A DNA stretch of 45,767 nt from a virus. The position numbers were made by a program, and so were the translations under genes. The stretch's first letter is position 1; each line of letters starts with the position of its first letter. Shown here piece by piece: positions 9,912 through 32,263 of the stretch. Below the pieces are notes generated by a model. It saw nothing but the letters and a program-made list of their open reading frames with translations, had not been told where the DNA came from and searched no databases. The stretch covers positions 1 through 45,767 of IMG/VR virus record IMGVR_UViG_3300037247_000684. One strand, 5' to 3'.

Positions 9912-10159
9912 AAGATTTTCCTTTCGCTAATTACTGTTTCCTGTTTTTGTTCCGTTTTACGTTTTAACATATACCTGATATGCCTTATCACCGAATTAGC
10001 GCCGAGATTAAAGTCTGTCTTTCTGGCACTATTGACATCAAATATATCAGCGTTCTCTAAGCAAAACTTCGACAAATCGCCAATTACTATTTGAGCCTTT
10101 GCATCATCAGCCGATAAGACATCCTTGTAAGCGGCTATTACTTTTTGCTGTTCGTCCAT
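9908..10159 (-). CDS. Bbp19-like small head protein, 83 aa
   Basis: The pattern AAYKDVLSADDAKAQIVIGD, then GANSVIRHIRYML, resembles the Bbp19 family found beside phage portal genes. It is probably a minor head or packaging-associated protein. Both ends overlap neighbours. Confidence 0.6.
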   Translation of the reverse strand: MDEQQKVIAAYKDVLSADDAKAQIVIGDLSKFCLENADIFDVNSARKTDFNLGANSVIRHIRYMLKRKTEQKQETVISERKIL

Positions 10160-10221
10160 TATCTTTTTTTCTTTTTCTTGTGTTTCTTTTTTCGGCGTTC
10201 TTTTGGTGTATGTCCTGGCAT
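10159..10221 (-). CDS. Tiny Lys/Arg-rich protein, 20 aa
   Basis: MPGHTPKERRKKKHKKKKKR joins neighbours by TAATG on both sides, so it looks translated. Very basic peptides starting MPGH occur in similar places in other phages. It may bind DNA or capsid charge; this is inference. Confidence 0.45.
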   Translation of the reverse strand: MPGHTPKERRKKKHKKKKKR

Positions 10222-12442: not shown

Positions 12443-14039
12443 TTATTACCTTCTCTTGTTTCCTGTGGACAGTTCCCGCCCGCGCTATGCGAGACCTCGA
12501 AGCAGCCAGCAAGAAATAATTCAACGCATTACGATAATGGTCAATCGTTCCTTTGTACCGATACTCCTTCGCTCCTGTCTTTTTGTTGGTGTCAAGTATC
12601 TTGTAGGCATCGCACATCTGTTTGGCGAACTCTTTAATCTCAGGGGAATATCGGGGAAGAATCAGCATACCTGGAGTAACCACCATTCTGTGGGTCTCAT
12701 CGAATAACGCCGTTCGGTAATCTTTTACCACGCCAAGTTTTATGTCCCACTTCCTCAAATAGGCGGGATTATTCGAGTATTCACATAAGAATATCTGGTA
12801 CGGTTCGGACGCCTGGAACTTCTTGACCGTATCCTGGTAAGGACGAATATCAATGACGGCGCTCCTGACGTGAAACTTCCTTGCCAAGTCGTGTATGTCC
12901 TCCCAAGCAGACAGTTTAATTGTTTTGACAACTTTGTACTGCTCTCTGCCGGAACGAACGCCTATTACGATATGTTTGACTATCCCAACGTCAATACCCA
13001 TCGCACAAGGGCCTGGATGAGAGCTTTCCTGATAATCCTGCCCGCAACATTCGTAAACCTGAGACTCCACCAACCTGTCCTCGGCGGCGATATAGGGAAG
13101 ACCTAATCTAAGCCTGTAAACATCGGCGAAATTGCCTTCGGGTGGTTCCCTGAAGTCTCGCAGTATGTCAAGCGGGTCGCAGACGGCACTGGTCAACTGA
13201 GACCACCTGTAACCTCTCATATAGTTCGTATTGTCCTTCAGCTCAGGTTGCCATTCTCCGTCTTTGATAAAGACTTCCCGTCCGCAATTCTTGCAGGCTA
13301 TGTAACCTGTACCATCACTTCTCACTCCTACACATCGTTCAGGGTCTTCTATGAAAAACAATTCTGCACAAGTAAACTTACCGCAAGACGAGCATTTACG
13401 CCACCAATGGCGCTGGTCTGACTTCTGCCACTGTTTATCAATACCTAAACCTGGTATAATCGGGTTTCCAATAAATACCTCTTCCTGAAAAGGCGAATCG
13501 TAATACCGACCCCTGGCTTTGGCAATGACCTCTTCTTCCATATGGTCAACTTCGTCGAAGACTATCTTATCGACCCCGATACTCTTCATCTTGGAGGATT
13601 CGGCCTGCTCGCCGCGCTTTTCACTTAAACGCGCACCACGCAAGTAGAGAAAGGCATTAAATATTTTCTTCAGGGAAGCCGTATCGGTTCCCTTACCGCC
13701 ACTCTTGACGTATTGACCTATTGCCAGCTGATTAGAAGAGAGCAACGGGGCAAAACGACTCTTGCTGAATTCGTTCACATCATCAGTGGTAGGAAATAAG
13801 TACAAAACGCCCTCTTCGTAACGTCTTTTTATCATTCCGTGAAGACTTTTAAGAATCTCTATCTCACTAAAACCCCCACGAGTAGCTTTCATATAACATA
13901 CCCGCTTGCAGGTATTGCCCATCGGCTCTACCTGGTATTCGTGATTATAAAAGGTATAGACAGACCGCTGGAGCTTAATCCCGTTCTGAATCGCCCATCT
14001 TCCGGCGTTTACCTGTGATAGTTCTTGAGGAGTTATCAT
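12423..14039 (-). CDS. Terminase large subunit, GpA type, 538 aa
   Basis: This is the packaging ATPase and nuclease. The deviant Walker A of GpA enzymes is seen as KATRGGFS (51-58), with the lysine at the N-terminal position as in lambda; the usual last Lys is Glu. Walker B is DKIVFDEVDH (157-166). Two CxxC pairs (C216/C219 and C249/C252) form the GpA zinc site. The nuclease domain shows MGIDVG (acidic D350), AVIDIRPYQD (D397) and a C-terminal DHYRNALNYF. GpA-type terminase with a T7-like tail is a mixed but known module combination. Confidence 0.9.
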   Translation of the reverse strand: MITPQELSQVNAGRWAIQNGIKLQRSVYTFYNHEYQVEPMGNTCKRVCYMKATRGGFSEIEILKSLHGMIKRRYEEGVLYLFPTTDDVNEFSKSRFAPLLSSNQLAIGQYVKSGGKGTDTASLKKIFNAFLYLRGARLSEKRGEQAESSKMKSIGVDKIVFDEVDHMEEEVIAKARGRYYDSPFQEEVFIGNPIIPGLGIDKQWQKSDQRHWWRKCSSCGKFTCAELFFIEDPERCVGVRSDGTGYIACKNCGREVFIKDGEWQPELKDNTNYMRGYRWSQLTSAVCDPLDILRDFREPPEGNFADVYRLRLGLPYIAAEDRLVESQVYECCGQDYQESSHPGPCAMGIDVGIVKHIVIGVRSGREQYKVVKTIKLSAWEDIHDLARKFHVRSAVIDIRPYQDTVKKFQASEPYQIFLCEYSNNPAYLRKWDIKLGVVKDYRTALFDETHRMVVTPGMLILPRYSPEIKEFAKQMCDAYKILDTNKKTGAKEYRYKGTIDHYRNALNYFLLAASRSRIARAGTVHRKQEKVISEYAKI

Positions 14040-17892: not shown

Positions 17893-17921
17893 TTGACTTT
17901 TGTGCTCAAATCACCGATAAT
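17893..17921 (+). promoter_or_regulatory. Rightward promoter 1
   Basis: TTGACT (17893-17898), 17-nt spacer, GATAAT (17916-17921). The block from the -35 through CGATAATACTTTCA is shared with rightward promoter 2, including spacer bases (TTTnTGC and AAAT), so a common regulator may bind. Confidence 0.7.
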
Positions 17922-17932
17922 ACTTTCATGAT

Positions 17933-18021
17933 GATTACTTGGCTAAACACTCAAAACCGCATTTATTCGCCCGCTGGCACTTACAATTCTTTTAGCCGAG
18001 TAATCGTTTGTGTCGGCGGGC
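17933..18021 (+). ncRNA. Interlocked-helix leader RNA, copy 1
   Basis: Helix A: 17933-17947 with 17991-18005, 15 bp, one G-U. Helix B: 17969-17980 with 18010-18021, 12 bp, two G-U. The order A-B-A'-B' makes a pseudoknot. Spacers: A-B 21 nt, B-A' 10 nt, A'-B' 4 nt. Helix B ends 19 nt before ATG 18041 and is followed by a short U-rich run and AAGGAG. Both copies 2 and 3 share the plan with different sequence. Confidence 0.75.
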
Positions 18022-18040
18022 TTTATTTAAGGAGCCGATA

Positions 18041-18328
18041 ATGTATGACACAACACACGAAAATGGCGTTTTAGTTTGTAGCATCCACCGAACACCTATC
18101 AGCAAAAGTCACGGGCGTTTTTTCTGCCTTAAATGCCAACACAGTGAGGACTATCACAAGCAACACAACACCGAAGAGCATCAAGCGAAAATTGGGAATT
18201 GCATAGCTCAATTAGTTTTGCTCAAGAAACACAAGAACCGCTACCATACAGCCTGGGGCACAAAAACAGACTTAGGGCTTTACCTTAGCGTTAAACGCAT
18301 CTTTGACGAAGAGCGAATAAACATCTAA
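18041..18328 (+). CDS. Hypothetical zinc-binding-like protein, 95 aa
   Basis: Start ATG 18041 with AAGGAG; the longer frame from 18008 runs through the leader helix and is unlikely. CSIHRTPISK and FFCLKCQHSED give a C-H / CxxC set, followed by a His-rich helix. First gene behind leader copy 1. Function unknown. Confidence 0.65.
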   Translation: MYDTTHENGVLVCSIHRTPISKSHGRFFCLKCQHSEDYHKQHNTEEHQAKIGNCIAQLVLLKKHKNRYHTAWGTKTDLGLYLSVKRIFDEERINI

Positions 18329-18403: not shown

Positions 18404-18649
18404 ATGAAAACCTACAATGGCCACAGAAGCTGGAACGCCTGGAATGTATCGTTATGGATTAGCAATACAGAAGCTACCTATAATTATGCTTTGCATTGCC
18501 TAAAAGAAACGACTTTCCACGGCATACAATCAGCAGGACGGGCAACCACTGAATTTATGCGAGCGTATCCTAATGCACGAACCCCAGACGGAGCAATTTA
18601 CAACCACTTATCAGTTAAGCTCTGTCTGCAGGGCTTTATCAAAGATTAG
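18404..18649 (+). CDS. DUF7249-like conserved protein, 81 aa
   Basis: The start YNGHRSWNAWNVSLWISN fits the YNGxxxxxTWNVxLWI signature of a small family common in phages and plasmids. Role unknown. AAGGAG precedes ATG 18404. Last gene of rightward operon 1, before a strong terminator. Confidence 0.65.
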   Translation: MKTYNGHRSWNAWNVSLWISNTEATYNYALHCLKETTFHGIQSAGRATTEFMRAYPNARTPDGAIYNHLSVKLCLQGFIKD

Positions 18650-19946: not shown

Positions 19947-19971
19947 ACTTCACTTCAGTTCAGATTTAGGA

Positions 19972-20002
19972 AACTTTCCCCCTGTAAAAAAGGAGGAAAG
20001 TT
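19972..20002 (-). promoter_or_regulatory. Hairpin upstream of the 19.95 kb gene block
   Basis: AACTTTCCTCC pairs with GGGGGAAAGTT (11 bp, one G-T) around a T-rich loop, 25 nt before ATG 19946. No promoter was found for this block in 20003-20255. Confidence 0.4.
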
Positions 20003-20255
20003 AAAACCTTCACTTTCAGACGAGTTTGAGGTTTCCAATCCTTTTGCTGTTTCAGCCTTTTAGCGTAATTTTTTTAACGTGGACTACGAGTAGCAGCGAA
20101 ACTCTCTCTAACCTTTGCAGGCCGATGTATTGGGATTCTCAGTCAAATACACCTATAACCACTTATTGTACCTCTTCGGCTCGTTCTGCCGCTCTGGGCC
20201 AGACTGGAACGCTCAGTCCTATTGTCTCGGCCTACCGGATATTCCCTCGGCCTAT

Positions 20256-20306
20256 AAAAAAAGCGGCAAGGTTCTGAAAATCCCTAAACTCGTCAGAACC
20301 TGCCGC
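20256..20306 (-). terminator. Intrinsic terminator of the candidate small RNA
   Basis: 20293-20306 pairs with 20263-20277 (14 bp, one bulged base), followed on the minus strand by seven T. Confidence 0.85.
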
Positions 20307-20586
20307 TTAGTCTCTTAACTTTTATATCTTCTATCATATTCTGCATCCCTGCGAAACTTAATACTCCGTTAAATGCAAATATGTTCTGTTATACCAACGG
20401 GCAAGACACCACATGTTAGACTGTTCGTTTGCAACCTTCCAGCCCTATCCGATAAACCTTTGATTATTACAAGTAAACTAATAACAACCAAGTTTTTACC
20501 GAGCCAGCGACATTACCGTTCATTGCCTTGTTTCCCCTGCGTGTAACACGCCACCGTCAGCATCTTAACTTGTCAATCAATCACAA
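20256..20586 (-). ncRNA. Candidate small RNA, about 330 nt
   Basis: A consensus promoter (20593-20621) and a strong intrinsic terminator (20256-20306) bracket a stretch with no ORF above about 18 codons on the transcribed strand. The start shares GTTTGTGATTGA with the late transcript. It may be a regulatory RNA; leader peptides cannot be excluded. The gene-poor part 20003-20255 beyond the terminator shows nothing I recognise. Confidence 0.5.
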
Positions 20587-20592
20587 ACAACA

Positions 20593-20621
20593 ATTAGATA
20601 TTATTTTTGACCGTTTGTCAA
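20593..20621 (-). promoter_or_regulatory. Promoter of the candidate small RNA
   Basis: TTGACA (20616-20621), 17-nt spacer, TCTAAT (20593-20598). Confidence 0.7.
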
Positions 20622-20653
20622 TAAAATTAAATAAAAAACTTTCCCGTTTATTT

Positions 20654-20683
20654 AGCCTAAAATAGGGATTTTCAGGCTTTTTT
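20654..20683 (+). terminator. Rightward intrinsic terminator
   Basis: AGCCT/AGGCT plus AAAT/ATTT stem with a run of T on the plus strand. It insulates rightward promoter 2, 20 nt downstream, from upstream transcription. Confidence 0.65.
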
Positions 20684-20704
20684 CGTTTCCTTGACATATT
20701 TCTC

Positions 20705-20741: not shown

Positions 20742-20832
20742 TATGAAAGCTGACCAAAACAATCAAACAAGCATTAAAAAGCCTCGGCACTCCACGTCTC
20801 TTGGTCAGAGTTCATATTGTGTCGGGGCTTTT
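20742..20832 (+). ncRNA. Interlocked-helix leader RNA, copy 2
   Basis: Helix A: 20742-20757 with 20801-20816: 6 bp, a tandem A-G/G-A internal loop, then 8 bp. Helix B: 20777-20790 with 20819-20832, 14 bp, two G-U. Spacers: A-B 19, B-A' 10, A'-B' 2 nt. Against copy 1 at least four helix-B pairs change on both sides while the GGCAC/GTGTC end, including its G-U, is kept. Helix B ends 20 nt before ATG 20853. Confidence 0.75.
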
Positions 20833-20852: not shown

Positions 20853-21284
20853 ATGAGTGCTTTTATTGTAGATGACAAAACGATTAACAGAGTTGTAGCT
20901 TGGATGCATGATGCAGTCAAAAGACAAACAGATTTTTCCTGGAGTGTCCGAACTTTGCAAAAATTAGGATACAAACTCGACACTGAATTAGGTTGTAAAA
21001 GGCTTGCCGAAGAAATGTTCACCTTGAATTGCGACAGTATTGAGCAGAGATACGGAGAAGGGCAAGCGAAAGAATTTAGGCCGCTTGATTTTCAATTTAG
21101 CCTTGTGCGCCCGCCAGGTCATTATCAAGCACTGAGTTCGATGCGATGCCTCTTGTATCAATGTTGCGAAGGTGATGTGCCAGAGCAAAGCGATTTATAT
21201 AACGCTCTTGACAGAGTTTCGCTCGAATTGAGCTACCAGCTTATAAGTCGCTCAAAGGCTTACGAGGCAGTCACCTGGGATTAA
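20853..21284 (+). CDS. Conserved hypothetical protein, 143 aa
   Basis: Start ATG 20853 (GGAAGG upstream) gives MSAFIVDDKTINRVVAWMHD, a beginning I associate with a conserved mobile-element family of unknown role. Later segments: ELGCKRLAEEMFTLNCDSIE, and a helical C-terminus rich in Ser/Tyr. First gene behind leader copy 2. Confidence 0.65.
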   Translation: MSAFIVDDKTINRVVAWMHDAVKRQTDFSWSVRTLQKLGYKLDTELGCKRLAEEMFTLNCDSIEQRYGEGQAKEFRPLDFQFSLVRPPGHYQALSSMRCLLYQCCEGDVPEQSDLYNALDRVSLELSYQLISRSKAYEAVTWD

Positions 21285-23979: not shown

Positions 23980-24408
23980 TTATGCTACTTTCTTATGCTC
24001 TTTTCTGTGACATTTTATGCAAGTTGGCAAAACATCGAGCCAGTGTTCTTTGGCGTAACCTTTATAGTGGTGATACTCTTGGGCTGAATTGGGACAATAA
24101 TTACATCGTAAAAATTTGGCGTTTGGTATCAAGCCGCTTTGTATGGCTCCGTTTACTGCACTTCCTGCTTTTCTTGCTTTAGAATGCCGAATGCATATCT
24201 TCTTTCGGACAACTTTGCCTTTTTCACTTTTTTCATATTTACTACTCGCCCTACGATGCACTTCCCTGCCCTGCTCAGTTTGTATATAATTTTTACAACG
24301 TATCCCAAAACACTTTTTGCACTCGCTTGTACGACCATCTTTAGTTCTTTTCTCTTTGTAAAATTCAGAAAGCTGTTTGTCTTGTTTGCACTTTGAACAG
24401 GTTTTCAT
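23980..24408 (-). CDS. HNH homing endonuclease-like, 142 aa
   Basis: N-terminal zinc motif TCSKCKQDKQLSEFY..SECKKC, a basic middle, and a C-terminal CNYCPNSAQEYHHYKGY..LPTCIKCHRKEH, which is an HNH/zinc nuclease core. It is a paralogue of the plus-strand gene at 41074. It lies 52 nt downstream of the interrupted tRNA-like element, an arrangement typical of mobile endonucleases near introns. Confidence 0.75.
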   Translation of the reverse strand: MKTCSKCKQDKQLSEFYKEKRTKDGRTSECKKCFGIRCKNYIQTEQGREVHRRASSKYEKSEKGKVVRKKICIRHSKARKAGSAVNGAIQSGLIPNAKFLRCNYCPNSAQEYHHYKGYAKEHWLDVLPTCIKCHRKEHKKVA

Positions 24409-24460
24409 TGTATGGTTCCAACTCTTTTGCTGCTTGGATTGTTGTAGAAAATGAAATTAG

Positions 24461-24726
24461 GTGTTGCGAGGCAGGGATTTGCACCCTGCATGGTTAATCT
24501 TAGCCCGACTTCCTGCTCTTTGACTTCATACCTTTTTGTTAAAAGGCTTCGGTCATCCGTTGTGAAACGGCGTAGTTTATTCGTAGGCACGTACTGCTGA
24601 CCAACTCTGTCTGTCAGTCGCCCTTGTAGTAGGAAACTATGAGCGCCAAGCCACAACACTTGGCCGCCTACCTCCAGAAGCAAAACCTTACGAGCACCTA
24701 AGCGTCTACCTATTCCGCCACCCGCA
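24461..24726 (-). tRNA. tRNA-Leu-like halves split by about 190-nt insert
   Basis: The 5' end (TGCGGGT, then GGCGGAATAGGTAGACGC) is a Leu-type acceptor and D arm. The 3' end (CAGGG-TGCAAAT-CCCTG, then CCTCGCA) is a T arm and acceptor; TGCGGG pairs with CTCGCA. CTTAG (24698-24702) and CTAAG (24499-24503) could be the anticodon stem, with the insert in the anticodon loop. The insert has several hairpins (CCTTTT/AAAAGG, CCGTT/AACGG, CTGAC/GTCAG, GCCAAG/CTTGGC) and CGACT/AGTCG. A small group I intron is possible; no anticodon can be assigned, there is no encoded CCA, and a decayed tRNA is the alternative. Confidence 0.4.
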
Positions 24727-24773
24727 TAAAAAAAGCCCTGGGTTGAATGCCGGTCAAGGGATTTCCCAGAGCT
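24727..24773 (-). terminator. Intrinsic terminator just upstream of tRNA-like element
   Basis: AGCTCTGGG (24765-24773) pairs with CCCAGGGCT (24734-24742), then a T-run reaching the first base of the tRNA-like sequence. On the plus strand one pair becomes C-A, so it favours leftward transcripts. Confidence 0.7.
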
Positions 24774-24862
24774 TCTTTTAACACCTAATTGTATTTGACC
24801 GACATTCATCTTACTTTCTACGATAATCCATTTATTCTTGTTCGTCCAGAATAAAATAAAAT

Positions 24863-32106: not shown

Positions 32107-32124
32107 TTTCTTACCTCAAAATAA

Positions 32125-32234
32125 ACCGACAAGGGGCGCGGAGCCAGTTACGATGTGGAAAGAACGCGCCCGCTTGACGGTAATGTGCCGTTGATTTGAT
32201 TTGTTGGGTGGTTTCCATTTTCGTAACTGACTCC
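32125..32234 (-). ncRNA. Interlocked-helix leader RNA, copy 3 (diverged)
   Basis: Helix A: 32221-32234 with 32140-32153 (14 bp, one G-U). Helix B: 32165-32181 with 32125-32140 (15 bp with one bulge and one T-T). One base is shared at the A'/B' joint. B-A' spacer is 11 nt; A-B spacer is 39 nt with a small hairpin. Helix B ends 18 nt before ATG 32106 and is followed by TTATTTTGAGG, as in copies 1 and 2. Confidence 0.65.
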
Positions 32235-32263
32235 ACTTTAACTTTTCAAAACGTACAAGCTAA

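Follow-up and report, generated by a model that had tools for sequence, protein, structure and literature searches.

A repeated phage leader with two crossing RNA helices and an open reading frame that may act as a ribosome-gated attenuator

In amino-acid attenuators of the trp and his type, a leader open reading frame (ORF) is accompanied by more than one hairpin; H-type pseudoknots, such as those of the T4 gene 32 leader and of the preQ1 and SAM-II riboswitches, carry their arms in the order A-B-A'-B'; and the P1 c4 and P4 CI immunity RNAs combine a phage leader RNA located before a gene with premature termination. The phage leader described here resembles the amino-acid attenuators in having an ORF and more than one hairpin, but its helices have no strand in common, its copies share no codon run, and its ORF runs past the terminator-like hairpin with no stop before it. 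The order of the arms (A-B-A'-B') is that of the H-type pseudoknots, whereas the helices are 8-24 bp long, the short spacer is the one between the two 3' arms and the element consists mostly of ORF. As in P1 c4 and P4 CI, the leader RNA lies upstream of a gene (termination being predicted in our case), but the pairing is confined to one short leader and the 45.8-kb sequence analysed has no Rfam match.

According to passages of PMC4824070 and PMC5021804, the terminator of the pyrBI attenuator is located within its 135-bp leader gene, and a ribosome that follows closely behind the polymerase prevents termination. As far as pyrBI (pyrL) of Escherichia coli is described in those passages, it shares with the phage leader an ORF that spans the terminator, or terminator-like hairpin, and stops near the gene. 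Unlike in pyrBI, the start codon of the phage leader is near the 5' end, within an additional long helix crossing the terminator-like hairpin; furthermore, the phage leader is repeated within one genome and has no known metabolite link, and its termination is a prediction. A passage of a review on leaderless mRNAs (PMC9031893) deems riboswitches unlikely in such transcripts unless they lie within the coding sequence, and structure within the coding sequence, the case exempted in that passage, is the geometry of the phage leader. Among the portions of the open PMC literature covered, we recognised no description of a start codon in one helix combined with a terminator in a crossing helix.

The leader occurs in a 45.8-kb virus record (hereinafter the window, that is, the whole stretch of DNA analysed) which carries terminase and head-tail connector genes. 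The initial annotation had claimed two leader copies; four were found, the two further ones being on the minus strand:

17893..17921, plus strand: copy 1, promoter-like site, TTGACT-17-GATAAT
17928..18041, plus strand: copy 1, leader ORF of 37 codons whose TAA stop overlaps the next ATG (TAATG)
17930..18021, plus strand: copy 1, crossing helices (A, 17930-17947 with 17991-18008; B, 17969-17980 with 18010-18021)
18041..18328, plus strand: gene behind copy 1, 95 aa
20705..20733, plus strand: copy 2, promoter-like site, TTGATG-17-GATAAT, with 9 of 12 consensus positions; common to copy 1
20742-20832, plus strand: copy 2, whole element with both helices
20743..20856, plus strand: copy 2, leader ORF of 37 codons whose TGA stop overlaps the ATG of the next gene
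20742..20757, plus strand: copy 2, 5' arm of helix A, containing the leader start codon (20743-20745)
20777..20790, plus strand: copy 2, 5' arm of helix B
20801..20816, plus strand: copy 2, 3' arm of helix A
20819..20832, plus strand: copy 2, 3' arm of helix B, with a T-rich run behind it that extends to about 20838
20853..21284, plus strand: gene behind copy 2, 143 aa
24727..24808, minus strand: copy 3, crossing helices (A, 24808-24795 with 24757-24744; B, 24780-24765 with 24742-24727)
24405..24809, minus strand: copy 3, ORF of 134 codons that begins at helix A and whose stop overlaps the start codon (ATG) of the gene at 24408
32125..32236, minus strand: copy 4, crossing helices (A, 32236-32221 with 32153-32138; B, 32181-32170 with 32136-32125)
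32111..32236, minus strand: copy 4, leader ORF with a GTG start, its stop being separated by 4 nt from the next ATG

In copy 3, the T-run falls within the 3' arm of helix B; copy 4 has an in-frame ATG directly past helix A, and the gene behind it is an ORF of 30 codons only. The 143-aa protein behind copy 2 produced no match to Pfam or PHROGs up to an E value of 0.1, and a comparison of the window to Rfam gave no matches at the gathering score and, for the region of copy 3, none up to an E value of 5. The second gene after copy 1 (18404-18646) encodes a DUF7249 / phrog_871 protein. Upstream of copy 2 (19950-20700), a stretch of about 700 nt contains no convincing gene, and a similar gap is visible by eye in L173.

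The long pairings that had been proposed for copy 2 correspond to the two crossing helices, A and B, at 20742-20832. Helix A consists of 14 standard pairs flanking a tandem A-G/G-A (20748-20749 versus 20809-20810) and helix B of 14 bp; a fold limited to nested pairs contains B and lacks A (z -3.4) because the two helices cross. The tandem A-G/G-A, which the initial annotation had assigned to helix A in general, is present in copy 2 and absent from copy 1, where these 2 of the 16 pairs are A-T and T-A; among the remaining pairs, with the 3' arms registered by structure, six differ between the copies on both sides, one differs on one side and seven are the same. The alignment of copies 1 and 2 is gap-free along 71 nt, with 70% identity at an offset of 2812 (BLAST E value of 3.7e-4), in agreement with the earlier claim that they have promoter and loop bases in common, and the TCAAA..GCATT loop match sits inside this block. 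The motif CGATAATACTTTCA occurs twice in the window; with up to two mismatches, 0.48 occurrences are expected there, and two or more were obtained in 10 of 100 shuffles. A 24-nt match upstream of the two copies has the same 2812 offset, and in this register the identity is raised around 17760 and at 17900-17960. The common offset and the raised upstream identity suggest that copies 1 and 2 may have been derived from a single duplication.

Relatives of the window were gathered via the terminase and the portal protein (the genes that follow copies 2 and 1, used as queries, retrieved 2 and 0 relatives, respectively), and the 63 records scanned comprise the window, G001-G040 and 22 short contigs, many of them fragments. 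The initial annotation had recommended looking for the cassette upstream of other genes in relatives, and this search yielded 24 distinct leader copies, recognised by score and by eye, in 17 of the 63 records, the window included and G024 counted among the 17. The copies outside the window are located in G001 (two), G002, G005, G006 (two), G007, G008 (three), G011, G017, G021 (two), G022, G023 (the same leader in G024), G028 and G032, with those of G003 and G004 added later. The main scan for crossing helices, limited to spacers of 4 nt or less between the 3' arms, produced 18 matches with a score of at least 54 in the 556 kb of the window and the first relatives (3 judged spurious and 1 a near-duplicate), compared with none in a 1.14-Mb control of unrelated viral sequences, unmatched in base composition, and one in two shuffled sets. 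The control sequences came from a search of viral contigs for the 14-base promoter motif, which gave at least 120 stretches; scanning revealed no comparable leader in them. In a second, more distant set of relatives (636 kb), the same threshold gave five matches, four of which are listed leaders, two of these being one leader. When an ORF and an adjacent gene start were included along with the helices, 21 matches scored at least 46 in 1.19 Mb versus none in the 1.14 Mb of the control; 14 of the 21 are listed leaders (one a duplicate) and 7 look spurious or of another kind. A wide-loop scan requiring an ATG gave 26 matches with a score of at least 50 in the relatives, several of which look spurious, versus 3 in the control. 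With spacers of up to 40 nt, matches scoring at least 52 numbered 29, 29 and 30 in the relatives, and 7, 5 and 13 in the control, for spacers of at most 4, 5-14 and 15-40 nt, respectively. This even spread, together with the leaders that have spacers of 5-15 nt (G006-7522, G003 and G004), indicates that a short spacer is no firm rule.

The lists of matches were pruned by eye before counting. From the first set we dropped G005+13451, G016-3718, G003+4553 and G007-5384 as well as all matches with scores below 51, including G001-13071, although a Shine-Dalgarno (SD) sequence and an ATG are located behind it; from the second set, the other matches in G023/G024 (up to 59.0), G032-19059 and the rest of those without a leader-like context were removed. 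The set of 22 leaders used for most counts below corresponds to the 23 kept leaders plus G006-7522, minus two duplicates (G024 and G006+45502); G006-7522 was added after its leader ORF had been noticed, whereas the other members were chosen before, and G003-1055 and G004-5366 are counted in the 24 but absent from the 22.

Helices A and B use separate arms, with a 1-base overlap in 5 of the 23 listed leaders, and comparison of orthologous leaders, with the arms registered by hand, shows how the pairing is maintained. In helix A of copy 1 and G017, 15 pairs are unchanged, one differs on one side, one differs on both sides and none is broken; in helix A of copy 4 and G008, the respective numbers are nine, two, four and none, with one pair absent from both arms. 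The outer 10 columns of helix B in copy 4 and G008 include eight unchanged pairs, one pair formed in G008 only and one mismatch in copy 4 only. Over the 22 leaders, which include three badly registered ones kept in the pair and energy averages (G006-7522 and the two G021 copies), there are 511 Watson-Crick and 87 G-U pairs against 7 A-C and 15 other combinations, and, with the reservation that the scanner rewards G-U, the large excess of G-U over A-C favours this strand as the one that folds. The mean duplex energies of the same leaders are -20.1 kcal/mol for A and -20.0 kcal/mol for B, a balance that favours alternation of the helices over their coexistence; the nested fold of the full leader selects A in 10 and B in 9 of the 22, and the prefix that ends at the 3' arm of A folds with A in 19. 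In 15 of the 22 leaders, at least five of the 9 nt counted from the end of B are T, compared with 11.7% of random 9-mers. The loop of helix B measures 18-38 nt in the 23 listed leaders; in the loop between the two helices, A is abundant (45%) and G scarce (11%).

In most cases, the leader is an ORF, which the initial annotation had not recognised, and is probably translated. A start codon is located between -4 and +15 of helix A in 17 of the 22 leaders, in a frame that is open past helix B. An ATG at -4 to +6 with an open frame is present in 14 of the 22, against 0.90 expected from shuffles (maximum of 8 in 200,000 draws), and any start codon at these positions with an open frame in 16, against 2.29 expected (maximum of 10). 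Among the five leaders that lack an open start between -4 and +15, three have one when a wider window is used or by eye, and G011 and G021+38090 have none by either approach. The stop codon of the leader overlaps or is located within 12 nt of the start of the next gene in 15 of the 22, including 12 from the ORF survey (copies 1-4, G002, where the downstream gene is cut off at the end of the piece, G005, both copies of G006, G007, G022, G028 and G032), two from the scan for helices and ORF (G008+2913 and G008-13458) and one recognised by eye (G021+35357); this adjacency is not a wholly independent test because the T-rich tail and the start codon that follows had been viewed during selection. 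Five leader ORFs have no stop at the gene start: that of G017 passes it in a different frame, those of G001+5157 and G023 run far beyond, and those of G001+5997 and G008+9812 stop elsewhere.

The peptides of the leaders are less uniform. In the alignment of copy 4 with G008+2913 the two ATGs are one base apart; 87 of the 102 aligned bases differ in frame and 15 are the same, and both ORFs are open as far as the stop at the next start. This difference suggests that, at least in copy 4, the act of translation seems to be more important than the peptide produced. The peptides of copy 1 and G017 are alike, with RIYxPxGTxNSFSRVIVCVGGL recognised by eye. Searches with 10 leader peptides against Pfam and NCBIfam gave no match up to an E value of 10, and by eye the leader peptides have no codon run in common, that is, no shared 'sensor' codons. 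The SD sequence of the downstream gene is outside helices A and B, so that translation of this gene may not require the leader.

Upstream of 12 of the 23 leaders, the sigma-70-like score given by a matrix of general promoter base frequencies exceeds the 95th percentile of random windows taken from the same records, and the best -10 element ends 4-11 nt upstream of helix A in 11 of the 23. Within the window, copy 1 alone passes the threshold, with copy 2 (8.3 versus 8.64) and copies 3 and 4 below it; for copy 2, the matrix ranks a pair of elements slightly further upstream above the GATAAT common to copy 1. Identity is 80% over 181 nt between the leaders of copy 1 and G017 and 84% over 195 nt between those of copy 4 and G008+2913, and in both these pairs of orthologous leaders as well as in a third one (G003/G004) the downstream proteins have no mutual BLASTP similarity, as expected from the previous description of a modular leader placed before unrelated genes. 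The accompanying statement that promoter and RNA move as one holds for the most part; the exception is G008 (L164 14371-14251, minus strand), where the promoter block of copy 2 (89% identity over 63 nt) is found without the leader RNA, before a gene homologous to the one that follows copy 1 (E value of 2e-20, 78% over 36 residues). Furthermore, G006 carries one 92-nt leader twice (L159 892-983 and L161 5902-5993, the second at a contig end) with a partly diverged promoter. Collectively, the unrelated downstream proteins, the promoter without RNA in G008 and the repeat in G006 indicate that the leader is an exchangeable part without a strict tie to its promoter.

Both helices, their covariation, the open frame, the stop-start adjacency and the T-rich tail are read directly from the sequences, and from these we infer translation, termination and the order of events. 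The reading that we tentatively prefer, at slightly below an even chance, is a ribosome-gated attenuator similar to that of pyrBI with an extra helix over the start codon, such that the ribosome may decide on the expression of the gene behind the leader. Under this scenario, helix A would pair the 5' part of the leader, including the start codon, with a downstream arm, and helix B, crossing A, would act as a terminator-like hairpin with a T-rich tail directly before the gene. Helix A would fold once its 3' arm has been transcribed, unless a ribosome already occupies the start codon. A ribosome near the RNA polymerase would mask the 5' arm of B, so that B would not form and transcription would continue, and that same leading ribosome would finish at the start codon of the gene. 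If the ribosome is late or stalled, A would stay open and B would be free to fold, resulting in termination. If this is correct, the leaders would be a reusable phage module that senses translation and keeps its fold as the sequence changes. They also show that folding can reveal short leader ORFs of about 30-45 codons, and the small size of the module and the existence of natural variants with and without the RNA make direct testing feasible. Several features speak against an attenuator, namely the 18-38 nt loop of B, which is long for an efficient terminator, the below-threshold promoters of copies 2, 3 and 4, the SD of the gene outside both helices, the five leaders lacking an open start between -4 and +15, the five leader ORFs without a stop at a gene start, and the absence of shared 'sensor' codons by eye. 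Moreover, if A is the first to form and blocks B topologically, transcription would read through a leader that is not translated, which would weaken the simple analogy with pyrBI. In the corresponding topological attenuator, which we regard as unlikely, early formation of A would enclose a terminator arm in the loop of A and block termination without any shared strand; the start codon would be exposed only while about 60-90 nt are transcribed, and the leader, a reused module, would read out the arrival of a ribosome within a few seconds.

Several other interpretations have to be weighed against the ribosome-gated attenuator. A and B could form together, as a stable 5' pseudoknot that protects the 5' end of the mRNA or binds a phage protein controlling all leader-bearing genes. 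Such coexistence would fit the maintenance of the fold despite sequence divergence, the closeness of A to the presumed transcript start in roughly half of the leaders and the 3'-arm spacers of -1, 1 and 1 nt that an unconstrained scan of the window gave for copies 2, 3 and 4, respectively, but the short spacer is in part a product of the scan, with its maximum of 4 nt, and spacers spread evenly in the wider scan. In addition, the helices of G023 (20 and 24 bp) are connected by a loop of 12 nt, so that by our estimate from general helix dimensions both could hardly be complete and coaxial, and the start codon in A, the open frame and the stop at the next gene are left unexplained by a pseudoknot; on balance it appears improbable. 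The frame and its start codon would be accounted for if the leaders were genuine genes for small proteins, the peptide being the product and the helices merely tuning its translation, and the similar peptides of copy 1 and G017 as well as the longer ORFs of copy 3 (134 codons) and G008+9812 (159 codons) are compatible with this possibility. However, copy 4 and its ortholog are mostly in different frames, the peptides of separate copies look unrelated by eye, and the 10 peptides searched lack Pfam and NCBIfam matches up to an E value of 10, which makes small-protein genes quite improbable.

The resemblance of B and its T-rich tail to an intrinsic terminator would also be expected of a small non-coding RNA that ends at B, with an antisense or immunity function of the P1 c4 or P4 CI kind, and with the gene expressed by read-through; indeed, the T-runs of copy 3, G001+5997 and G008+9812 are long, and these copies lack a usual gene start shortly downstream. 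Nevertheless, most of the listed copies are followed by an SD-like stretch and a gene start within about 40 nt, the window has no Rfam match, and the open frame would again be left unexplained, so we consider this reading very unlikely. That the helices are chance inverted repeats or sites acting at the DNA level is hardly credible: some matches, including high-scoring ones, do look spurious, but the controls and shuffles, the two-sided changes, the prevalence of G-U far above A-C and the single orientation relative to the gene all argue against it. An HDV-like ribozyme, a frameshift pseudoknot, a type I toxin and an Ash/Icd-like peptide were also considered and dropped on the basis of their general features.

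With regard to the distribution of these phages, the portal protein of the window produced 176 matches in named phages, all with less than 60% identity and, among the 40 matches listed, at most 31.4%. In bacterial and archaeal genome contigs, a pattern scan detected no portal relative, and a search for the copy-4 block gave none; relatives are present among uncultivated viral contigs. Searches of further viral contigs with the copy-4 and copy-1 blocks gave one match each, both already in the set of relatives, and searches for distant DNA similarity, with copy 1 against phages and copy 2 against plasmids, yielded short weak matches only. In five named phages with a related portal protein, nothing convincing was found among the best four matches each; these score up to 57.2 (in the high-GC BcepC6B), and a few of them have a GTG or TTG start and none an ATG.

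Three sequences have tRNA-like ends around a long insert: the window at about 24725-24440 (minus strand), L156 at about 12935-13135 and L164 at about 10008-10198. In the element of L156, the acceptor has 7 bp (GGGACAG/CTGTCCC), a T-arm and a Leu-like D-arm are present, and a long stretch replaces the anticodon region; the copy in the window has 23 exact bases around the T-arm in common with it. ARAGORN at default settings calls none of these elements, and in Rfam searches the window copy had no match and that of L156 had only weak ones below the threshold; when ARAGORN was run with loosened settings on five other pieces, intron-bearing candidates appeared in those of the window and L164. Finally, leaders with long T-runs (L156 after 18500; L159 before 7522, minus strand) were seen by eye to precede replication-like phage genes.
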